The notes below the pieces were generated by a model that was not told the DNA's origin, did no database searches, and worked only from the letters and a program-made list of their open reading frames with translations. From a virus, in the IMG/VR virus record IMGVR_UViG_3300044648_000332, positions 1-30,681 of that record: DNA of 30,681 bases; one strand, given 5' to 3'. The translations under genes were made by a program, and so were the position numbers. Positions 3,300 to 28,522 of this stretch are shown here, piece by piece (the stretch's first letter is position 1; each line of letters opens with the position of its first letter).

Positions 3300-4078
3300 T
3301 GAGCGTGAACGCCATCGTTGAGTTGCCAGTCATGCAGATCATGACGGTCGAGGCGATGACCGACCGGATCAACCGCATCCAGACGGTCACGCGCTCCAAG
3401 ATGATCCAGAACGTCCACTACGGGATCATCCCTGGCACCAAGAAGCCAACGCTCTACAAGGCCGGCAGCGAAATGCTGCTCACCATGTTCGAGATTGGCC
3501 CGACGGTCGACGTGCTGGACCTGTGCACCAACGAGCGCATCAAGTACCGCGTCACCGTGACTGGGGTTCACATCCCGACCAGCCGGCCAATCGGCCAAGG
3601 CGTTGGCGAGTGCTCCAGCAACGAAGAGAAGTACCGCTGGCGCAATGCGATCTGCGACGAGGAGTTCGACGAGACGCCCGAAGGCTCGCGCCGTATCAAG
3701 TGGGGGCGCGGGCAGGGCGGATCGATCTACCGCACCAAGCAGGTCCGCACGACACCCGACGACCTCAGCAACACCGTGCTGAAGATGGCGAAGAAGCGCG
3801 CCCAGATCGACATGACGCTGACCGCGCTGGGGGTGTCCGACCTCTTCGACCAAGACCTCGATGACCTGCCGCCGGAACTGCGCCAAGGCGCGTCCGACGA
3901 CCATGGCGCTCAGCCGGCCGCCGTGATGGGCGCCTCGCTCATGGAACACCCTGGCATGAAGGCGGCCAAGTCAGTCCAGGAACTGTCCAAGGTCATGAGC
4001 GGACTGAAGCAGGACGAGAAGAAGAAGTTCGTCGGCTACTTCAACGAGCGCATGCAGCAACTGAAGGACGCCAAATGA
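3299..4078 (+). CDS. Putative single-strand annealing/recombination protein
   Basis: This 259-residue protein contains conserved-looking blocks: NVHYGIIPGTKKPTLYKAG (about residues 39-57), a beta-strand set, VGECSSNEEKYRW (about 102-114), and NTVLKMAKKRAQIDMTLTALGVSDLFDQD (about 159-187). I know this pattern from phage and bacterial proteins that sit beside lambda-type exonucleases. The last block, with its helix and ending in LFDQD, resembles the core of Rad52/Sak-like annealing proteins. The next gene is a YqaJ-type exonuclease overlapping it by four bases, and that arrangement is typical of two-component phage recombination. The C-terminal 60 residues form a separate Lys-rich helical tail. 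The fold assignment is inference from motif and context; it could instead be a recombination mediator. Confidence 0.65.
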   Translation: MSVNAIVELPVMQIMTVEAMTDRINRIQTVTRSKMIQNVHYGIIPGTKKPTLYKAGSEMLLTMFEIGPTVDVLDLCTNERIKYRVTVTGVHIPTSRPIGQGVGECSSNEEKYRWRNAICDEEFDETPEGSRRIKWGRGQGGSIYRTKQVRTTPDDLSNTVLKMAKKRAQIDMTLTALGVSDLFDQDLDDLPPELRQGASDDHGAQPAAVMGASLMEHPGMKAAKSVQELSKVMSGLKQDEKKKFVGYFNERMQQLKDAK

Positions 4079-5037
4079 TCGAAGGCCTGATCGAGCACCC
4101 GTTCCCGCAGGGCACTGAGGAATGGATCGAAGCGCGGCGCGGCGTGATCACTGCCTCCCGCGCGAAAGACGTCCGCGATTTCAAGAAAAACGGCGACCCC
4201 GGATCGGCGCGCTTGGCGTACGCGATGGATTTGGCCCGTGAACGCTGCGGCGGGAAGGCGCCATCCGCCTACGTCAACGCGGCAATGCGGACCGGTATCG
4301 AGGAAGAGCAGTTCGCCGCCATCGAGTACATGGCGCGAACCGGCGCCGAGGTTTCAGAGGCCGTTTTCGTCACCACGCCAGACCGAAAGTTCGGCATGAG
4401 CGTGGACCGCTGGGCCGGCGCAGGCGCTGCACTTGAGATCAAGACTATGGTCAGCAGCGCCACGCTGTTCAAGGCGATGGTCGACGGCGACATCAGCGAC
4501 TACCGCGATCAGTGCGTCTTCGGACTCTGGCTGTTCCGCCTTGACTGGATTGACCTGTGCCTGTGGGCGCCCGACCTTCCGAATCCGCTCCACGTTGTCC
4601 GCATCGAGCGCGACGAGGACGAGATACAGAAGCTCGAAGATGACCTCATGACTTTCGAGCGCCTGGTCGTCACGTTCGAAGCCAGGCTGCGCGCGAAGCT
4701 GGAGATGCCGGAGACGCGGCAGTCCCAAGCGAAGCCCAGCCACTCCGCTGAGGAGATCGCCGTCCACCACTGCACCAGCATGCAGTTGTACGGCCAGTCG
4801 TGGATGCGGGTCGGAGTGAGCGAAGGCGGCGAGGCATACACCGAGCCAGTCGATGCGCGCGAGGTCTTCCTCGACGCAACGCCGTCTCTCACTGCAGAGC
4901 TGCTCGAGCACATCGGCCGCGCTTTCCGCAATCGCTTCCCGAGTCAGCCAAAGGTCTCGCAGGAGTGGTGGCAAGACCTACGCGCCAAGGCAGACGCCCT
5001 GCGTGCCGCAACCCAACCGATCACGGAGCCAGCATGA
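4075..5037 (+). CDS. YqaJ/lambda-Exo-type 5'-3' exonuclease
   Basis: This 320-residue protein carries the YqaJ exonuclease signature: QGTEEWIEARRGVITASRA at residues 12-30, an acidic GIEEE block at 74-78, a GMSVD motif whose D111 fits the metal-binding Asp, LEIKT with E121 and K123 as the ExK pair, and Q146 in the following helix. This family degrades one strand from double-strand ends and feeds the annealing protein, here the gene immediately upstream (overlap 4075-4078). The nuclease core ends near residue 210. The last 110 residues, including a Trp-containing beta-like block and a helix, exceed the usual length and may be an added domain or partner-binding region. Start at the ATGA overlap. 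Confidence 0.85.
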   Translation: MIEGLIEHPFPQGTEEWIEARRGVITASRAKDVRDFKKNGDPGSARLAYAMDLARERCGGKAPSAYVNAAMRTGIEEEQFAAIEYMARTGAEVSEAVFVTTPDRKFGMSVDRWAGAGAALEIKTMVSSATLFKAMVDGDISDYRDQCVFGLWLFRLDWIDLCLWAPDLPNPLHVVRIERDEDEIQKLEDDLMTFERLVVTFEARLRAKLEMPETRQSQAKPSHSAEEIAVHHCTSMQLYGQSWMRVGVSEGGEAYTEPVDAREVFLDATPSLTAELLEHIGRAFRNRFPSQPKVSQEWWQDLRAKADALRAATQPITEPA

Positions 5038-5380: not shown

Positions 5381-5644
5381 ATGGACGACAACCAAGCCGC
5401 CGCCAGCCGCGAGCAGACCGTTCGCCAGATCATCTCCGACCAACTCGGGGTTGTCCTGAACGAGGTCACGCCGGAGCGAAGCCTTTCCGCCGACTTCGGT
5501 GCCGACTCGCTCGACATCGTGGAGATCTCGATGTACCTCGAAGACGAGTTCGTCACCGTGATCTCTGACGAAGAGGTCGGGGCCTGGGCCACGGTTGCCG
5601 ACGTGATCGCCACGGCTCACCGGCACTCCGAGGATGCTCAATGA
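5381..5644 (+). CDS. Phage-encoded acyl carrier protein
   Basis: This 87-residue acidic protein matches the acyl carrier protein family over nearly its whole length. It has a helix I (VRQIISDQLGV), a long loop ending LSADFGADSLD, helix II (IVEISMYLEDEF), then the ISDEEV turn and a last helix (VADVIATAHRH). S43 in the GADSLD motif is the expected 4'-phosphopantetheine attachment site. Length is close to bacterial AcpP (about 78 residues) with a short N-terminal extension. No ketosynthase, acyltransferase or phosphopantetheinyl transferase is encoded nearby, so it would have to use host enzymes. It may feed acyl groups to a phage or host transferase, or act through the known binding of AcpP to proteins such as SpoT or MukB; both are speculative. 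It overlaps the next small membrane gene by four bases. Confidence 0.88.
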   Translation: MDDNQAAASREQTVRQIISDQLGVVLNEVTPERSLSADFGADSLDIVEISMYLEDEFVTVISDEEVGAWATVADVIATAHRHSEDAQ

Positions 5645-5772: not shown

Positions 5773-6021
5773 CAACGGGGCCGCCCCGCCTCGTAAGTCC
5801 CTCCCTCCTCCCGAGCGAGGCGGACAAGCGGCCCCACCCATTGCAGAAGGAACCGCCGGCCCGATCGGCGGGTTGTGGAGAGAAGCGGAGGCGGACCGCA
5901 CCACCGCCAGGGTATCCGCCGCCAAGCGCATTGAAGTGTGGCCCGCACGGAGCGCAGCGGCACCCCAACGAAAGGACGGCTCTTCGGAATTGATGGTGGA
6001 ACCTAAGCTATGACCACAACA
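5773..6021. other. Non-coding stretch with two strong stem-loops
   Basis: No convincing gene was found in these 249 bases: frames that stay open on either strand give Pro/Arg/Gly-rich nonsense and lack ribosome sites. The stretch contains the nested hairpin at 5777-5835 and a second stem at 5851-5874 (AACCGCCG pairing with CGGCGG-TT, one G bulged). It separates the rightward operon from the end of the converging minus-strand operon, so the stems may limit read-through in both directions. There is no U-tract. Confidence 0.5.
5777..5835. repeat. Nested stem-loop with pyrimidine-rich loop
   Basis: Outer arms GGGGCCGC (5777-5784) and GCGGCCCC (5828-5835) are perfectly complementary. Inside them CCGCCTCG (5786-5793) pairs with CGAGGCGG (5816-5823). 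The two 8-bp stems are separated by a 1x4 internal loop, and the 22-nt terminal loop is almost all pyrimidine with three CCTCC/CCCTCC runs. The loop could pair with ribosome-binding sites on plus-strand mRNA. It follows the stop of the membrane gene by four bases. As no T-run follows, it is more likely a stabilising or processing structure than an intrinsic terminator. Confidence 0.6.
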
Positions 6022-6079
6022 TCAGTCTGTGTGGAATCGAGCATCGCAGGTCGAGCAGACCATCAGCATGTTCAGGGGC

Positions 6080-6211
6080 TCATCGCTGGGTGCAATGGGG
6101 TGTATGTGCGCTGCGGCCTTGAAGACGCGCTTGCTCAGCGGCCAGACGGTAGCCCTCGGCGTCCAGCGGGGCCTCCAGCAGCCGCCAACCGGGAAGGTCG
6201 AGGATGTCCAT
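6080..6211 (-). CDS. Small minus-strand ORF, probably frameshifted
   Basis: Starts at an ATG that overlaps the stop of the upstream minus-strand gene (TGATG) and encodes 43 residues beginning MDILDLPGWRLLEAPLDAEG. About 75 bases in, the reading becomes poor, while the next frame down to a stop at 6022-6024 reads well (LSKRVFKAAAHIHP ... VCSTCDARFHTD), with a CxxC pair. Joining the two at about 6137-6146 would give a protein of about 60 residues. This looks like a recent frameshift, a sequencing error or, less likely, a programmed shift. The N-terminal motif loosely recalls the start of ISL3-type transposases, but the evidence is too thin for that call. Confidence 0.45.
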   Translation of the reverse strand: MDILDLPGWRLLEAPLDAEGYRLAAEQARLQGRSAHTPHCTQR

Positions 6212-6393
6212 CAGTCCTTGTCAGCAGCCGGCTTGGGCGCCCCCTTCGCGCGCTGGATGAGGGTGCGCAGCCAGGGGATGCCGTTGGCATCCACCTTTGC
6301 CCACTGCGCGGCGGTCAGGCGGATGGAGCGCTGCTCCAGCCGTTCATCGGGAGGTGTGGGCGGCCGTCCGCGCCCTCGCTTCTGTTCTTCCAT
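6211..6393 (-). CDS. Ribbon-helix-helix-like small DNA-binding protein
   Basis: This 60-residue basic protein reads as a disordered KRGRGRPPTPP head followed by a ribbon-helix-helix-like order: a strand (QRSIRLT, about residues 21-27), helix A (AAQWAKVDAN), a short turn, and helix B (IPWLRTLIQRAKG). The strand-helix-helix layout and length fit Arc/MetJ-type repressors, which bind operator DNA as dimers with the strand in the major groove. It is transcribed away from the 6394-6496 region, which holds a direct repeat and divergent promoters, so autoregulation is plausible. No strong ribosome site is seen upstream. It is the only candidate DNA-binding regulator in the window apart from the HTH-phosphoesterase. 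Confidence 0.7.
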   Translation of the reverse strand: MEEQKRGRGRPPTPPDERLEQRSIRLTAAQWAKVDANGIPWLRTLIQRAKGAPKPAADKD

Positions 6394-6496
6394 GCCGGGA
6401 AGTGTAGCCGAATTGTCGAATCACAAAAAAGCGCTTGCATTGCGCCATTTGATGAATCACAATAAATACATCGACAAGCAGCAACCGGAGAGCACC
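6394..6496. promoter_or_regulatory. Divergent promoter region with direct repeat GAATCACAA
   Basis: This AT-rich gap lies between the minus-strand regulator and the rightward gene at 6497. GAATCACAA occurs twice, at 6418-6426 and 6454-6462, 36 bp apart in the same orientation, each followed by an A-rich stretch. Rightward, TTGCAT (6435-6440) and CACAAT (6458-6463) with 17-bp spacing form a modest sigma70-like promoter whose -10 overlaps the second repeat. On the minus strand a TACACT -10-like hexamer lies close to the regulator start. The repeats are likely operator sites. Confidence 0.5.
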
Positions 6497-6790
6497 ATGA
6501 ACACCATCCAGGCCGCCAAGAAGTTCGATGACCGCGCCGTGGACTTCCTGACCGGCCGGAAGGTTTCGCCCCCGATGGAGGACCGGAAGGTCTGCGATTG
6601 CTGCCACCAGCGCATCGTCAAGGGCTTCTTCACCAATCTGGGCACGGTTGGCGACGACTGCTACGAAGTGATTCGTGCAGCCGCCCGGAAGGAGTCTCTG
6701 GAGGTCTTCCTGTCCGACCTGAAGCGGAGCACCGGATGGGGCGTCAAGCCGGTGGTCGGCCGCTTTCTGCAATCGCAGGTGTACGCATGA
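6497..6790 (+). CDS. Hypothetical protein with Cys-rich zinc-binding-like motif (97 aa)
   Basis: The ATG at 6497 follows a CCGGAGAG ribosome site (6485-6492). Residues 31-37 hold a CDCCH motif (C33, C36, H37) and C55 lies in a GDDC motif, spacing that could bind zinc. The N-terminal 25 residues (AAKKFDDRAVDFLTGRKV) and the C-terminal third are helical. It opens the second rightward block, next to the ClpX-type zinc finger gene, which it overlaps by four bases. The pattern recalls small phage proteins that modify host nucleic-acid enzymes, but no family is recognised. Confidence 0.75.
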   Translation: MNTIQAAKKFDDRAVDFLTGRKVSPPMEDRKVCDCCHQRIVKGFFTNLGTVGDDCYEVIRAAARKESLEVFLSDLKRSTGWGVKPVVGRFLQSQVYA

Positions 6791-7065
6791 ACCTCAAATG
6801 CGCCGGCTGCGGCAAGGCGCACCAGGAGGTGCGCCTCCTGGTGGCCCTATCCGACAAGCTCCACGTCTGCAATGAGTGCGTCGACATCTGCGTCGACATC
6901 TGCGCGGACACCAGCTTTGGGGGCGACGGCTTCGTCAGGGTTGCGACCCAGGAGCTGGAGGCGCTTCGCAGGCAGGCCCACCAGGCAACGCTGGCCAAGA
7001 TTTGGATGGACGGCATCCGCCAGTCCGTGGCGCGGCTGGATGAACAGATTCAAGCCAATGGCTGA
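6787..7065 (+). CDS. Stand-alone ClpX-type zinc-binding domain protein
   Basis: Residues 4-38 match the N-terminal zinc-binding domain of the ClpX unfoldase: C5xxC8GK, a strand with EVRLLVA, then VC28NEC31VDIC. The four cysteines are spaced as in ClpX (CxxC-N19-CxxC). ClpX uses this domain to dimerise and to dock SspB, lambda O and other substrates. Here it lacks the AAA+ motor and is followed by a 50-residue helical tail (EALRRQAHQATLAKIW). A free domain could compete for adaptors or join ClpX rings and change which proteins ClpXP degrades. This is inference. A 12-bp tandem duplication (6877-6900) lengthens the domain by four residues. It overlaps the upstream gene by four bases. Confidence 0.85.
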   Translation: MNLKCAGCGKAHQEVRLLVALSDKLHVCNECVDICVDICADTSFGGDGFVRVATQELEALRRQAHQATLAKIWMDGIRQSVARLDEQIQANG

Positions 7066-7094
7066 CCACCAACTTCCACCACGGAATCCGTTTT

Positions 7095-7157
7095 ATGGAC
7101 ATTCAACCTCATGCCCATTCCCACCACGCAATCCGAAGACCCGAAAGGACAGCATGA
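7095..7157 (+). CDS. Possible 20-residue His-rich leader peptide
   Basis: An ATG at 7095 opens 20 codons ending at a TGA (7155-7157) that overlaps the start of the next gene (7154). The peptide MDIQPHAHSHHAIRRPERTA has four His in its first 11 residues. The overlap suggests translational coupling, and a His-codon run could make ribosome transit sensitive to charged tRNA-His. The upstream ribosome site is weak (GGAA in a CGGAATCCG palindrome at 7082-7090), so this may be chance. Two near-identical 15-bp repeats (7076-7090 and 7121-7135) flank its first half. Confidence 0.25.
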   Translation: MDIQPHAHSHHAIRRPERTA

Positions 7158-7450
7158 ACACGCCAGCACGCGAAATGCCACGCTACCGCTGCCACAAGGA
7201 AGTGTGGGCCCTGAAGATCCGGATGATCGAGCACTTGCCGAATCCAGACCTCACGGGGCAAAGCGCAGCCAGCTCATACGGCGCGATCATCCATCCCGCA
7301 GAGCCAGGCTACGCGCCATTCCAGGTGGACGGTGCTTTCATGATCAGACATCGCCCGAAGCCTGACGGCTACTACATCGTCTACGGCGACGGCTACGCGT
7401 CCTACTCGCCGGCCAAGGCCTTCGAGGAAGGCTACCACCTGATCACCTGA
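7154..7450 (+). CDS. Conserved hypothetical phage protein (98 aa)
   Basis: Starts after an AAAGGACAGC site (7144-7153) at the ATG overlapping the small upstream ORF. The sequence has a familiar order seen in phage proteins of unknown function: RYRCHKEVWALKI (residues 10-22), an acidic strand with IIHPAEPGYAPF, then GYYIVYGDGYASYSPAKAFEEGY (about 71-93). This looks like a compact alpha/beta domain without metal sites. The next gene lies 139 bases downstream beyond a structured gap, so it ends a short transcript unit. Function unknown. Confidence 0.75.
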   Translation: MNTPAREMPRYRCHKEVWALKIRMIEHLPNPDLTGQSAASSYGAIIHPAEPGYAPFQVDGAFMIRHRPKPDGYYIVYGDGYASYSPAKAFEEGYHLIT

Positions 7451-7473
7451 GTTCCGGGCCGGCACCGGCGGTC

Positions 7474-7534
7474 GCATTGCGCGTGGCGGGGAATCTGGGA
7501 CCCTCGTTAGCTAGCCATACATCCACGCGAATGC
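7474..7534. repeat. Imperfect 13-bp inverted repeat in intergenic gap
   Basis: GCATT-G-CGCGTGG (7474-7486) pairs with CCACGCGAATGC (7523-7534); only one G is unpaired, and an extra C-G pair closes the outside (7473/7535). The 36-nt loop holds a GCTAGC palindrome, and its GGGAA (7489-7493) can pair with TTCCC just 3' of the stem (7537-7541), giving a possible pseudoknot. No gene is seen in 7451-7589. It may control translation or stability of the genes starting at 7590, or be a protein binding site. Confidence 0.5.
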
Positions 7535-7589
7535 GTTTCCCGGGCGGTTTCAGCGCGCGCCGGCCCACCTATCAACAATGGAGTCAACG

Positions 7590-7748
7590 ATGTCCTTCAT
7601 CGACCGCATCCTCATCGCCCTCCGCCTGAAGGACGCCCCGCTCCCACCGGTGGAGTTGCCGAAGGTGATCCCGCTGGTGCCACCCAAGTCGCACTTCGTC
7701 CGGCTCGACAAGGTGCGCGGGGCGCCCACACCGAAGGCGAGGACGTGA
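7590..7748 (+). CDS. Small Pro-rich hypothetical protein (52 aa)
   Basis: An ATG at 7590 with GGAG nine bases upstream opens 52 codons to a TGA at 7746-7748. An earlier in-frame ATG at 7578 has no ribosome site. The peptide begins with an amphipathic helix (MSFIDRILIALRL) followed by a Pro-rich run (PLPPVELPKVIPLVPP) and a basic end. The helix may lie on the membrane. It overlaps the next gene by four bases (GTGA), which supports it. Function unknown. Confidence 0.6.
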   Translation: MSFIDRILIALRLKDAPLPPVELPKVIPLVPPKSHFVRLDKVRGAPTPKART

Positions 7749-22213: not shown

Positions 22214-25200
22214 ATGGCAGCGCCGTTCTCCCGCGCCCTGTTGGCGCGGCTCTTGTCACGCCTGAACCAGTACACCGCTCCGGTGTGGACAGTGGCGCCA
22301 GCGGTCACCGCAGCCGATGCCGGCGCGAACGTCACCTACACCGGCGGAACTGTCACAGGCTACCCAGAGCCCACCGTCACCTACTTGGTCCTCGTCGATG
22401 ACGTGAGCGTCGGCCCGCCTCCGTACGAGGTGCAGCAGTCGGACGTCGGCAAGACGATCAAGATCCGCGGCATCGCCACGAACACGGGCGCCAGGCTCGG
22501 TGTCACGCAGGACAGCGCCGGCTACCTGGCCACGGGCGCGATCCGGGCGTCAATCAGTGCCACCGGCGAATGGCTGGACGAGAACGGCACGCCGCTGGTG
22601 CTGCGCGGCGTCAATCAGGGCACATGGGGGGAGAACTTCGAGCCCGATGCGGCCGCCATCAAGGCTCTTGGCGCCACGGCGGTGCGGCTGGTCGGCGTTC
22701 GCTGGTGGGGCGGGGACGGCTATGGCGCCGGCGTTGACTCCTACGACCCGGATCCCGAGAACTTCTACCTGAGCCCGACGCACCGCGCGCAGATGCTGCA
22801 GGAGGTCGCGTGGCTTGAGGCGCAAGGCATCTGGATCGGCTTCGTCTTCGACAGCGACAACGGCGCCGGGAAGATGGGCCTTGGCAACGGGACGCCCAAC
22901 TTCTTCGAAGAGAGCGCCGAGGGCGCCACGAAGTTCGCCGAGTGGAAGGTCATGGTGCGCAGCGTCGTGCAAGACCTGCTCGCCTTCGACCGCATCCTCT
23001 ACTTCGAGCCGCTGGCCGAGCCGCTGCAGCACGACTCCAACTCGTCTCACAACGAGCTGGTGCGCAATGTCTATCGCGAGTTGATGGACAACATCCGCGA
23101 AGTCGACGCGCGCACCCCGTTCCTCATCGGACCTCGGGCCAGCTACGGCGCGAACTTCCTCGAAGACATCATCCTGCCGGAGCGCAACGACTACGCGGTC
23201 ACCTGCGACTACCTGACCGGCAAGGTCAACGGCGAGGGAACGATCAACTCGTTCACCGAGTCGCTTCGCACGCTGCGGCTGACCTACAACGTCGGCCTGT
23301 TCCAGCAGCAGGTGGGGCGCGAGACCGTCGGCGACATCGGAGACGTGAATGCCGACGGCGTTGGCGACACGACTGACAACGTCGGCTACACGGGCATGTG
23401 CGGAGTGCTGTCGTCACTGAACGCGCACAACATCCCATACACCTGGTGGCAGTGGCACCAGAACACCGACAACGCCGGCACCTACGCGCTGCACTACAAG
23501 CTCGTCTACCCTGGGCCAACCGGTCCGGACAACTGGGTGCCGAAGCCGACTGAGTTGGCGATCTTCGAGTACCACATGCGCCAGACCGGCGACTGGGTCG
23601 AAGACGAGGCCATCGCCGCCGCCACATCTGTCGCTGGTGGGCTCCTGTTCGATCCGGCTCCGAGCAATTGCTTCACCGACGCGGCCGGAACGATCCCCGC
23701 GTCGGCTGGTCAGAAGGTGCGCCGCATCAACGCGGTTGTCGGCGACGGCTTCGCGAGCCAGAACGACAACTCGCTGGCTCCGACTCTGGTTGCAACCGTC
23801 AACGGCTACGCGCTGCAGTTCAGCGCCGCGGCTGGCACGTACCTGAACATCAACACGTCCTACTTCGCGGACGGCGACAGCGGTGTGGTGATCGCGGCCG
23901 GGCGCCCCACCGCCAGCGGCTCTGCGCGCGTGATGTTCCATTGCGGCAACTCGAGCACGACGGTTCGCAACCCGTACTTGGCGATCACAAGCTCCGACCT
24001 GATAACGGCGTCGTGGCGCGGCGACGACAACGTCAACCGGGCCAGCGACTCGACAACCACCTGCGACGGCCGCGCCATTGTCGCCACCGCATACCGCAGC
24101 GGCTCAAGCAAGAAGGTCAACGCGCAGGGGGTCCAAGAAGGGTCGAACGGCAACGCGGTCGGTTCGATGGCAACCATCACGCGCGCGCGCTGGGGCTCTT
24201 CGTCGACTGGGGCCAACAACTTCGACGGCCCCATGTCGTTGCTGTTCCTTGGGAAGTCGATGAGCGACGCTCAGTGCCATGCGATCGAGCGCCGCGGCGC
24301 GTGGAAGGAAGGTGCGCCGTTCCGCGCAGCGATCCCGGTCCTGTCGATCGTCGCTTCGCCGGTGCTGACCGCCACCAATGGCCGCACCTACACCGGCTTC
24401 ACGTCCTACGGGTTCAACGGGGTCCAGCCCTACACCTACTCTCTCATCGGCACGCTGCCAACTGGCCTTTCGCTCAACACGAGCACCGGAGCCATCACCG
24501 GCACGCCAACGCAGACCGGGACGTTCGCTGGGCTCGGCGTTACCGTGACGGACGACAACGACGACACGGCGAGCCTGTCAACGTTCTCGCTCACCGTCGC
24601 CGCGGCTGTCGGAATCTCCGGGACTCCGGTCCTGACCGCGACCAGCGGAACGGCTTACACGGGCTTCACTGCCAGCGCGACTGGCGGCACGGCCCCCATC
24701 ACCTACGCCAAGGTTGGGACTTGGCCGACCGGGCTCAACCTCAACACTTCGACCGGCCAAGTCTCCGGCACGCCGACCCAGACTGGCAGTTTCGCCGGGA
24801 TGTCGATCAGTGCCACGGACGCCCACGGGTCGACGGCCAGCCTCGCCACGTTTACGCTTGTGGTCTCGGCAGCAGTTGGCATCTCGGGCACGCCGGTCCT
24901 TACTGCGACGAACGGGCGCCCCTACACCGGCTTCGATGTCGACGCAACGGGCGGGACTGCGCCGATCGTTTACGCGAAGGTCGGGACTTGGCCCACTGGG
25001 CTGAACCTGAACACATCCACGGGTGTGGTCAGCGGAACGCCTTCGCAGTCCGGCTCGTTCGCCGGCATGTCGGTCAGCGCAACAGATGCGCACGGATCGA
25101 CTGCGAGCCTCTCGACCTTCACCATGGTGGTGGCTGCCGCGGTTGGAGTGTCTGGAACGCCAGTCCTGACAGCGGACGACGGCCTGCCGTACGCCGGCTT

Positions 25201-28200
25201 CGACGTCAATTCAACCGGCGGCACGGCGCCGATCACATTCGCCCTCGTCGGTACGTGGCCGGATGGAATCACGATCGACTCGTTGACGGGGGTTGTCTCT
25301 GGCACCACATCCGAGCTTGGAGCGTTCGCCAGCTTGAGCGTCAGCGCGACTGACGTCTACGGCTCGACAGCCTCTCTCGCCACGTTCACGCTGACCGTGT
25401 CCGAGATGACGGCGCCGACGCTGGAGGACATGGAGCCATACCAGACGACGGCCACTCGCTGGAGAAACATCCCATACGGCGAGGCCTCATGGACCGAGCC
25501 TGGCGGTAGCACCACGCTGTTCCAGCGTCTTGATGTCGATCTTCCGAGCACTGCCGCGCCGGCTGGTGGGTATGCCGTCATCGTCTACTTCCACCCGAAC
25601 GGATCGACGAAGACGGTCAGCGCCGGGTCCACCATCGAGGCCGTCCGCACAGCCGCACTGGCGGCCAACATCGCGTTCGTCTCGGTCGAGTTCCGACATC
25701 CCGTCACCAACGTCAGTGAGGGTGCTCCGCACGAGGACGCGGGGCTGGCCATCCAGTACATCCGAGGCCTCGCTGATGCCTTCAACTTCGACAAGACCAA
25801 GGTGGGCGCCGTCAGCCGCTCCCGCGGCAGCGTGTCGCTGTGGCAAGCGCTGCAGCCTGACATGCTCGACGCCGGCGCGGTCACGTGGCAAGGCCGCCAG
25901 TCTTCGCTGCTGCAGGCTGTCTGGAGCCACAACGCCCAGACCACCTACTCGACGACGGAGTTCGCCAACCTGTTCATCGTCGAAGGCGCGGAACGCACGA
26001 CCTTCTTGACCGCCAATCCGGATGACGTGCGCTGGGGGTCGGCCATCCAGGACATCGCCACGGCGCCATCGGTGCCGATGATGACGATTCTGCACCAGGA
26101 CGCCTACCCGACTGGCTACGTCAACGCCAACCAGGTCAACGAACACTACAGCGGCTTCGGGTCCGCGTTCGAGGACGCCTGCATCGCGGCTGGGCACGGC
26201 GCAAAGATCACGGCGCAGGATTCCGTCCCCGCTGCGAGCTCGTACGTTGGCGCCGTCGACTGGTTCGAAGAGATCTTCTACCCCGCACCGGCCGTCGAGA
26301 CCTACGGCAGCCTGGGCCTGAACGGCACGAACGTTGGACCGAACTGGGACTACCAGACTCGCGTCTTCGTCAACCTGCTGCACAGCCTGCGGTGCTGGTG
26401 CCCGATCATCGCCGGATTGCCGTATGACAACGGCTTCGGCTACGGTGACGTCACTCTCGTCACCAGTGGCGCGCAGAAGGGCTACCCAGCGGCGGGCCAA
26501 TCGTGCATCGGCATCTTCCTGAACGTGCTGACGTCAGACGACTACGGCGCGTACCTGTTCGAGTGCGATACCGACATGACGGCCAAGATCGTCAACAACG
26601 GCGAAGGCTCGTTCAACGGCACGCTTTCGTACAACGCTGGCACCGGGAAGACGACCGGCACGCTCACTGTCTCAAGCGGCACAGGTGTCATTGCACTGCG
26701 CTTCAACAACGTGAACAGCGGCTTCGGCGGGCTGAAGTTGCATGCCCCCGGCTATGCGCTGAACACGACACAGAAGATCCGCACCGAGGCCCTTGCGCAC
26801 TTCGACTTCGCCAGCGTGCTGCGCTTCATGGACTGGTTGAACACGAACGGGCCAGAGGCGGCGTTCGATGGAGGCGGCAACCAGCAGACGGATTGGATCG
26901 GCAGTTGGCCGGAAAACTCGGACAGCGCGCGAGGCTACAAGAACTCGCTGCAAGCTTGCTACGACTTCGCCGAGGAGTTGGACAACCGGCCGCTGGCGGT
27001 CAACATCCCTGCGCTGTTCACCGACTCTGCCATCCACAGCTTCATCGACGAATGCGCCGCTCTGCAGTCTGCCGACGCGAATCAGATCACCTACGTCGAG
27101 TGCCCTGGCAACGAGCCCTGGAACGCCAACCTCGGCGAGTCGACAACCTACTTCGACCTGCGAGACGCAGCGTTCACCGAAGCGAACGTGCGCGGCGGTC
27201 CGGACATCACGAGCATCACGCGCTCTGGCGGCAACCTCATCACCGTGGTGTTCGACGAGCCGCACCTGGTGACCGGAACGCCGTCGATCTACGTCAAGCA
27301 CAAGACCGACCTGTTCACCGCCGGCACCGAGACTGCGACGGTCGTCAACCCGACCACCATTACATGGGTCGACGCAGGCTCGAACGGCTCCATCTCGCAT
27401 GCTGACGACGACACCTACATCTTCCTGAACCCGTCGCACACGCTGTGCCGCAACATCGGCTACCACCAGCCTGACCCGAACACGACCGCCAACTACGTAC
27501 GGATCCGCTACGAGCTTTCGCGGGCTCGTGTGGCTTGGGAGCGCGTGGACGCGATCGACCAGTCGGCGCGGATCAAGATCATCTACGGCTCATGGACGGC
27601 CCAGCCGCTGAACTACGTGCCGTGCTTGTTGTGGGCGCTCGAGGAGTACGGCGACCTTGACTGGCTGCATGCCGTCGCCACAGCCTTCTACGTCGAGCAC
27701 AGCGGCGACCCGGCGACGATCGATGACGTGGCCGAGGTGTTCTCCAGAATGGACACCTACGTCGTCGACGTGAAGGACCGGATGCTTCGGTGGTGCAACC
27801 TGGCGCACACCCTGGGGATCAGCACCTTCTGGTACGAATGGGGCCCTCACCTGCACCTGGACGGCGGCAACTCAACAGCTCGTGCGGCGATCGTCGCCTC
27901 CCACAGCGACGCCGGCATGGGTACGCGCATGGAAGAGTGGGCTCAGTGGGGCCGCAACTTCGACCAGGGCGTGATGTGCTTCTTCCACAGCGGGGTGGCC
28001 GGGCAGCCGACCCAAGTCAACGACTGCTGGCCGGACACCTTCGGCAAGATGTCTGACGACGCCACGGCTGTGAAGCACCAAACCCTGGTCGCCATAACAG
28101 ACGCGTCCGCGATGCCGGTTGAGGTCGATGGGCTCAACTTCGGCACGATCAACTACGCCGACGTGTTGCCATCCGCCGGCGCGTTGCTCGGGGTGTCGTC

Positions 28201-28522
28201 TGGCCGGTGCGTGATATCGCCCAGCGACAAGGTCGAAGACATCACCATCAACGTAGCGGTCGAGGCGGATGGCAACTACACGCTGGCGCTGAAGTGGGCG
28301 CGCCACACGGATGCAGCAGTGGCCTACACCTGCTACGTCGATGACGTGTCCGTGTCGACCGGCAACCTGCCGTCGGTCAACGTCTTCACGACAGCGGCGA
28401 CGCAGGCCTTCTCGACCACTGTCGCGCTGACAGCCGGCAACCACAAGGTCCGCATGCATGTTCCGAACGCAAGCCGCGCCGACTGGGTGCAGCCGTACCA
28501 GTGCATCTTGACCGCCGCCTGA
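22214..28522 (+). CDS. Giant multi-domain carbohydrate-active virion protein (2,102 aa)
   Basis: The start ATG follows GGAGCCC (22201-22207). Domains in order: an Ig-like domain (about 20-108); a GH5-like TIM barrel (about 110-470) with RGVNQG at 131-136, FEPLAEP at 264-270 (E269 in the acid/base position, N replaced by A) and VGLFQQQVG at 360-368, where the nucleophile position seems to be Q366; a LamG/concanavalin-like domain (about 475-700); four 89-residue He_PIG-type Ig-like repeats (711-1066); an alpha/beta-hydrolase esterase-like domain (about 1067-1360), S1203 in SRSRG and H1328; a second GH-like barrel (about 1361-1950) with RFMDW (1537-1541), GNEPWN (E1634) and YEWG (E1875); and a CBM6/35-like tail (about 1960-2102). 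No signal peptide, so virion assembly rather than export. Likely attacks capsule or other surface glycans. Confidence 0.8.
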   Translation: MAAPFSRALLARLLSRLNQYTAPVWTVAPAVTAADAGANVTYTGGTVTGYPEPTVTYLVLVDDVSVGPPPYEVQQSDVGKTIKIRGIATNTGARLGVTQDSAGYLATGAIRASISATGEWLDENGTPLVLRGVNQGTWGENFEPDAAAIKALGATAVRLVGVRWWGGDGYGAGVDSYDPDPENFYLSPTHRAQMLQEVAWLEAQGIWIGFVFDSDNGAGKMGLGNGTPNFFEESAEGATKFAEWKVMVRSVVQDLLAFDRILYFEPLAEPLQHDSNSSHNELVRNVYRELMDNIREVDARTPFLIGPRASYGANFLEDIILPERNDYAVTCDYLTGKVNGEGTINSFTESLRTLRLTYNVGLFQQQVGRETVGDIGDVNADGVGDTTDNVGYTGMCGVLSSLNAHNIPYTWWQWHQNTDNAGTYALHYKLVYPGPTGPDNWVPKPTELAIFEYHMRQTGDWVEDEAIAAATSVAGGLLFDPAPSNCFTDAAGTIPASAGQKVRRINAVVGDGFASQNDNSLAPTLVATVNGYALQFSAAAGTYLNINTSYFADGDSGVVIAAGRPTASGSARVMFHCGNSSTTVRNPYLAITSSDLITASWRGDDNVNRASDSTTTCDGRAIVATAYRSGSSKKVNAQGVQEGSNGNAVGSMATITRARWGSSSTGANNFDGPMSLLFLGKSMSDAQCHAIERRGAWKEGAPFRAAIPVLSIVASPVLTATNGRTYTGFTSYGFNGVQPYTYSLIGTLPTGLSLNTSTGAITGTPTQTGTFAGLGVTVTDDNDDTASLSTFSLTVAAAVGISGTPVLTATSGTAYTGFTASATGGTAPITYAKVGTWPTGLNLNTSTGQVSGTPTQTGSFAGMSISATDAHGSTASLATFTLVVSAAVGISGTPVLTATNGRPYTGFDVDATGGTAPIVYAKVGTWPTGLNLNTSTGVVSGTPSQSGSFAGMSVSATDAHGSTASLSTFTMVVAAAVGVSGTPVLTADDGLPYAGFDVNSTGGTAPITFALVGTWPDGITIDSLTGVVSGTTSELGAFASLSVSATDVYGSTASLATFTLTVSEMTAPTLEDMEPYQTTATRWRNIPYGEASWTEPGGSTTLFQRLDVDLPSTAAPAGGYAVIVYFHPNGSTKTVSAGSTIEAVRTAALAANIAFVSVEFRHPVTNVSEGAPHEDAGLAIQYIRGLADAFNFDKTKVGAVSRSRGSVSLWQALQPDMLDAGAVTWQGRQSSLLQAVWSHNAQTTYSTTEFANLFIVEGAERTTFLTANPDDVRWGSAIQDIATAPSVPMMTILHQDAYPTGYVNANQVNEHYSGFGSAFEDACIAAGHGAKITAQDSVPAASSYVGAVDWFEEIFYPAPAVETYGSLGLNGTNVGPNWDYQTRVFVNLLHSLRCWCPIIAGLPYDNGFGYGDVTLVTSGAQKGYPAAGQSCIGIFLNVLTSDDYGAYLFECDTDMTAKIVNNGEGSFNGTLSYNAGTGKTTGTLTVSSGTGVIALRFNNVNSGFGGLKLHAPGYALNTTQKIRTEALAHFDFASVLRFMDWLNTNGPEAAFDGGGNQQTDWIGSWPENSDSARGYKNSLQACYDFAEELDNRPLAVNIPALFTDSAIHSFIDECAALQSADANQITYVECPGNEPWNANLGESTTYFDLRDAAFTEANVRGGPDITSITRSGGNLITVVFDEPHLVTGTPSIYVKHKTDLFTAGTETATVVNPTTITWVDAGSNGSISHADDDTYIFLNPSHTLCRNIGYHQPDPNTTANYVRIRYELSRARVAWERVDAIDQSARIKIIYGSWTAQPLNYVPCLLWALEEYGDLDWLHAVATAFYVEHSGDPATIDDVAEVFSRMDTYVVDVKDRMLRWCNLAHTLGISTFWYEWGPHLHLDGGNSTARAAIVASHSDAGMGTRMEEWAQWGRNFDQGVMCFFHSGVAGQPTQVNDCWPDTFGKMSDDATAVKHQTLVAITDASAMPVEVDGLNFGTINYADVLPSAGALLGVSSGRCVISPSDKVEDITINVAVEADGNYTLALKWARHTDAAVAYTCYVDDVSVSTGNLPSVNVFTTAATQAFSTTVALTAGNHKVRMHVPNASRADWVQPYQCILTAA
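24344..25411 (+). repeat. Four tandem 267-bp Ig-like repeats
   Basis: Within the giant protein, the DNA repeats with a period of 267 bp, giving four 89-residue units. Each contains TPVLTAT..G..YTGF, TGGTAPI.YA, GTWPTGLNLNTSTG..SGTP and a SATDAHGSTASL.TF ending. Units 2 and 3 are most alike, unit 1 and unit 4 more diverged. They are He_PIG-type Ig-like spacers. Such repeats can change in number by recombination and so alter fibre length. Confidence 0.8.

Follow-up and report, generated by a model that had tools for sequence, protein, structure and literature searches.

We find that the open reading frame at 6787 to 7065 of the window, by which we mean the whole of a virus record, 30,681 bases long, in which terminase, portal and head genes are present, encodes a 92-residue protein, P0003, that combines a ClpX-type zinc-binding domain (ZBD) with a helical tail and has no ATPase. 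Our preferred reading, to which we assign a probability of roughly 40%, is that P0003 engages proteins recognised by ClpX, or the ZBDs of ClpX itself, and slows ZBD-dependent proteolysis. The frame opens with ATG at 6787 and its TGA stop ends at 7065, exactly where the original prediction had placed it; the product is MNLKCAGCGKAHQEVRLLVALSDKLHVCNECVDICVDICADTSFGGDGFVRVATQELEALRRQAHQATLAKIWMDGIRQSVARLDEQIQANG. The gene and its parts are these:

6787..7065, plus strand: stand-alone ClpX-type zinc-binding protein P0003, 92 residues (open reading frame, Pfam and PDB matches, purifying selection against the relative at locus L003)
6796..6903, plus strand: zf-C4_ClpX domain, residues 4-39 (PF06689 match and predicted ZBD fold)
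6799-6801, 6808-6810, 6868-6870 and 6877-6879, plus strand: codons of the zinc ligands C5, C8, C28 and C31
6805..6807, plus strand: codon of Gly7, which stands where ClpX has the side-pocket residue Phe16 (alignment to 2ds5)
6931..7059, plus strand: C-terminal tail, residues 49-91, one long predicted helix (AlphaFold2 predicted local distance difference test score, pLDDT, above 90 over most of it)

The primary evidence for the identity of P0003 is sequence homology and not the predicted model. Residues 4-39 match zf-C4_ClpX (PF06689) with 35.8 bits against a gathering cut-off of 27 (E 7.5e-9), the sole Pfam family in the protein, and all four zinc-ligand cysteines are present; the scan of the record scored 36.9 bits at 6796-6903. 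C35 is the counterpart of the conserved fifth Cys of ClpX, and C39 is additional. PDB sequence matches to E 0.1 were ClpX chains exclusively, the best being 2ds5 and 1ovx at ~1e-6, and the core CGK...EVR.L.A....C.ECVD.C..I of the ClpX ZBD (PF06689; 2ds5, 2ds6, 2ds8, 1ovx) is also found in P0003. This homology is specific to the ClpX ZBD, beyond a generic zinc-finger likeness, and it supports our reading; the four-Cys assignment made earlier from the sequence thus held.

An AlphaFold2 model built from a 36-row alignment that included ClpX ZBDs reached a mean pLDDT of 87, with a two-strand and helix unit at residues 1-40, a weak joint at ~41-50 and a helix at 49-91. When this model was searched against the PDB with Foldseek, ranks 1-6 were all ClpX, and the ZBD crystal structures 2ds5, 2ds6 and 2ds8 were matched at 0.9-1.0 Å over 37 columns, so that the structure prediction earlier proposed as a check came out as expected, for a model whose alignment held ClpX rows. 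The fourth match in the viral library was a 65-residue 'Clp protease' of Pseudomonas phage PP9W2.

The NCBIfam ClpX models TIGR00382 and NF003745 matched in their N-terminal part only, at 26 bits versus a cut-off of 359-371, and the AAA+ module that belongs behind the ZBD in these families was not found. A profile scan found AAA_2 (PF07724) nowhere in the record, and we conclude from this that the ATPase is truly absent, as had been proposed. Unlike ClpX, P0003 has neither linker nor AAA+ domain; it carries Gly for Phe16, has lost the AGP loop and possesses its own C-terminal helix. That the gene might be a truncated clpX was considered and dropped, as no ATPase remnant was seen.

Stand-alone ClpX ZBDs are a recurrent phage gene. 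In a broader search that returned 80 loci, 78 could be classified; 23 of these encode short ZBD proteins (73-236 residues), 5 encode proteins of 303-330 residues without Walker A, and the remainder are full ClpX. About 20 IMG/VR loci carry stand-alone ZBD proteins, as do the named phages P88 (AIZ95127.1, labelled carboxylate-amine ligase), D6 (orf93), Cr30, phi1, PP9W2 and BUCT566 (labelled Clp protease or ClpX). P0003, with a ClpX-type ZBD, no Walker A and a phage genome around it, belongs to this class. The proteins of the named phages and of these IMG/VR loci resemble it in being small, with a ClpX ZBD, no ATPase and often an early-region location, but outside the P0003 lineage they keep Phe16, most keep the AGP loop, and what they carry beside the ZBD shows no relation to the P0003 tail. 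The kind is therefore already in databases, and P0003 is an unusual variant of it. Across phage proteins the ZBD stands at either end, attached to unrelated extra parts, and because its position varies and the extra parts are unrelated, the ClpX ZBD appears to have been captured repeatedly by phages, although the domain is too short for a tree and none was built. No report of phage stand-alone ClpX zinc fingers, or of such proteins as ClpXP decoys or inhibitors, was found in the literature, most subscription journals lying outside the search.

The neighbours at these loci are mostly early or replication genes: the ZBD gene follows that for a DUF1376 primosomal protein at L003 and that for P2 gpA at L048 and L067, and it adjoins one for a DnaT-like protein at L026, while in the Pseudomonas phages PP9W2 and BUCT566 the ZBD gene lies between replication O/DnaB and nin genes. 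DNA methyltransferase genes are neighbours at several loci, and in a counter-case, L056, the ZBD gene adjoins structural genes. The early-region setting is a tendency in few lineages and not a counted enrichment. Recurrence in phages, often in such regions, supports our reading. The public labels of the genes at L169 2321-2653 and L172-L174 2483-2680 overstate or misstate the product ('carboxylate-amine ligase', 'Clp protease', 'ATP-dependent Clp protease ATP-binding subunit'). At L173 and L174, both Pseudomonas phages, a TraR/DksA-type zinc finger gene (2283-2483) directly precedes the ZBD gene with a one-base overlap; in the window a small Cys-rich gene likewise directly precedes it, but of a different type.

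Full-length relatives of P0003 were found only at L002 and L003 in a search of 2.9 million IMG/VR contigs (IMGVR 3300024051_000026 and 3300022742_000112, identical to each other over the 8.1 kb compared). Their protein is 65-70% identical to P0003, similar over its whole length and in both Gly7 and the tail; the phage is otherwise unrelated, and its gene lies behind the DUF1376 primosomal protein and another open reading frame. In a blastn comparison of the window with L003 (11.4 kb), the ZBD gene was the sole aligned stretch (236 bp, 79%) and its flanks were at background identity. From this we conclude that the ZBD gene travels as a unit between unrelated phages. The ratio of nonsynonymous to synonymous substitution rates (dN/dS; methods NG86 and LWL85) against the L003 relative was 0.171/0.856 over residues 1-83 with NG86, about 0.2, which marks P0003 as a real, selected protein. 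The ZBD was the most constrained part (~0.09, compared with ~0.32 for the tail), and this low value in the ZBD also supports our reading.

Other searches returned no further relatives of this kind. The tail alone had none outside the window and the L003/L002 lineage, and BLAST-type matches of P0003 in phage and plasmid collections covered the ZBD only, those opened being full-length ClpX (the plasmid collection matches include chromosome-sized records). A genome-contig scan with the A1 model gave no relatives; with the A2 model 80 loci were kept, all of them full ClpX or ClpX ended by a contig edge. The A1 model, run without a positive control at E 1e-9 on 300 genomes from the taxonomic order to which the Ramlibacter centre genome belongs, found none, and PF06689 was present once in nearly all of those genomes and more than once in about six.

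According to our preferred reading, P0003 would fold around zinc, would probably dimerise like the ClpX ZBD, and would stand in for, or pair with, the host ClpX N-domain; such pairing with ClpX ZBDs is possible. It may bind a protein, of the phage or of the host, for whose recognition ClpX uses the ZBD, as in the lambda O type of recognition, or form mixed dimers with ClpX ZBDs, and the outcome would be slower ZBD-dependent ClpXP proteolysis of selected proteins, including phage proteins, during infection. SspB, RssB and trigger factor would not be held in the process, since P0003 lacks the pocket residue on which they rely. Of the ClpXP modulator first proposed, a ClpXP-directed role remains reasonable, given that P0003 has a domain of the ClpX ZBD type but no ATPase and that phages repeatedly carry ZBDs on their own; the two routes suggested for it, an adaptor trap and disturbed ClpX assembly, look unlikely in the form proposed. 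As for assembly interference, the AAA+ hexamer still forms when ClpX has no ZBD (PMC7804408), which makes this route doubtful. An analogy comes from mycobacterial ClpC2, which is partly homologous to the N-domain of ClpC1 and shows that a Clp N-domain on its own can serve as a molecular sponge; at high level it makes the degradation of casein slower (PMC10030653). Like P0003, ClpC2 resembles the N-domain of a Clp unfoldase and is detached from the rest; unlike P0003 it belongs to another domain family, is a host gene and has a known ligand and a DNA-binding role (PMC10030653), and the comparison is an analogy only.

If stand-alone ZBDs do modulate ClpXP, a function would be found for a whole class of genes whose present labels are 'Clp protease' or 'carboxylate-amine ligase', and well-known E. 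coli ClpXP assays could be used to test how phages control host proteolysis through the N-domain. The P0003 lineage, having lost Phe16, offers a natural experiment on which ZBD surface is important. A wider scenario, in which phages repeatedly detached the ClpX docking domain as an early decoy shielding phage proteins from ClpXP and the P0003 lineage then turned from adaptors to substrates or ClpX, is possible but rather doubtful.

Several observations weigh against our preferred reading. Phe occupies the Phe16 position in all 82 full ClpX and in 27 of 29 ATPase-less ZBDs, counted over the distinct ZBDs gathered in this analysis, and the two exceptions are P0003 and its L003 relative. The 'AGP' (Gly-Pro) loop, near-constant in ClpX, is changed in the same lineage, and because residue 7 and this loop are altered, the surface may serve another target. 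AlphaFold2 run on the two close sequences alone gave a poor model (pLDDT 51.6), so the confident model leans on its ClpX rows. In the window, none of the genes beside the ZBD gene was recognised as coding for an O-like replication protein; the nearest genes with a recognised product encode an acyl carrier protein and a YqaJ exonuclease.

The main rival is that P0003 is a ClpX-derived zinc finger repurposed for some other target (nucleic acid, RNA polymerase or a phage enzyme) with no ClpXP role, an alternative we take seriously if tentatively. The lost pocket Phe and AGP loop fit this, as do a new tail that matches nothing and the neighbouring product P0001, another small Cys-rich protein; the other ClpX ZBD residues are nevertheless strongly kept, in the part with the lowest dN/dS, and the closest structures are ClpX ZBDs only. 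It appears unlikely that P0003 is a recruiter whose ZBD pairs with the host ClpX ZBD while the helical tail holds a client and redirects ClpXP. The predicted two-part layout of ZBD and long helix would suit such a role, and the isolated ClpX N-domain dimerises (PMC5415555), but constraint is weaker in the tail than in the ZBD.

The idea that a soluble copy titrates SspB-like adaptors, as the original prediction had it, turns on the side pocket of the ZBD. Trigger factor binds there, SspB and RssB are reported at the same region, and pocket-residue mutations of the E. coli ClpX ZBD abolish the trigger-factor effect while lambda O degradation persists in the mutants (PMC7804408). Alignment to 2ds5 places Gly7 of P0003 at ClpX Phe16 and Ile38 at Ile46, so that of the two named pocket residues the Ile is kept and the Phe is replaced. 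When IMG/VR was scanned with a DNA pattern encoding the Gly variant, just the L002 and L003 contigs matched; the scan possibly did not take in the window's own record. Judged by these residues, adaptor docking is feasible for stand-alone ZBDs as a class, but the P0003 lineage probably does not dock adaptors, because Phe16 has become Gly and the AGP loop has changed; adaptor titration by P0003 is therefore quite improbable. That the gene is a relic, a decaying functionless fragment of captured clpX, is very improbable: it is absent from close relatives of the phage, but the whole-length dN/dS is low, the frame is intact in two lineages and both have the same new conserved tail.

The gene for P0003 is accessory to its phage, since L175, the nearest relative found for this phage (92% identity in the terminase, 92.8% in DNA over 3.3 kb), is without it. 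The surrounding features are:

6497..6790, plus strand: upstream open reading frame P0001, 97 residues, Cys-rich (CDCC...GDDC), no family, overlapping the ZBD start by ATGA
7154..7450, plus strand: downstream open reading frame P0002, 98 residues, phrog_11049 (function not known)
5981..7449, no strand: variable interval holding the three-gene cassette (blastn against L175, which has a different gene there)

In blastn against L175, 5868-5980 matched at 94.7% and 7450-7732 at 86.3%, with nothing significant between them except a 19-bp start-site match. L175 has at the interval a different open reading frame, 3759-4382 (207 residues), with no Pfam match and an HNH-like look by eye. The 113-bp stretch 5868-5980 forms the left edge and may mark a swap junction; the 19-bp match, CGAAAGGACAGCATGA, surrounds the ribosome site and start codon at window 7142-7160 and at the matching L175 edge. 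PF06689 was found in 0 of 17 related records (16 found via the terminase and one via P0001; many are fragments). P0001 has one relative, at L255, whose record has no ZBD, and the idea that P0001 and P0003 form an obligate pair was dropped on that ground.

A promoter scan near the cassette found none, terminator-like sites were at chance level, and PADLOC defence models did not match P0003 or its two neighbours. A 60-residue open reading frame at 6211-6393 (minus strand), divergent from the cassette and beginning GRGRPPTPPDERLEQRSIRLTAAQWAKVD..., looks like a small DNA-binding regulator and has no PHROG match. The acyl carrier protein at 5381-5644 (plus strand; PP-binding, E 1.1e-11, phrog_5934) is 72% identical in L175. 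Farther along, 22214-28522 (plus strand) encodes a 2102-residue protein in which a cellulase (GH5) domain and repeats of the Ig-like He_PIG domain are accompanied by weaker matches to BD-FAE esterase and CBM_35, probably a multi-enzyme tail or surface-degrading protein.
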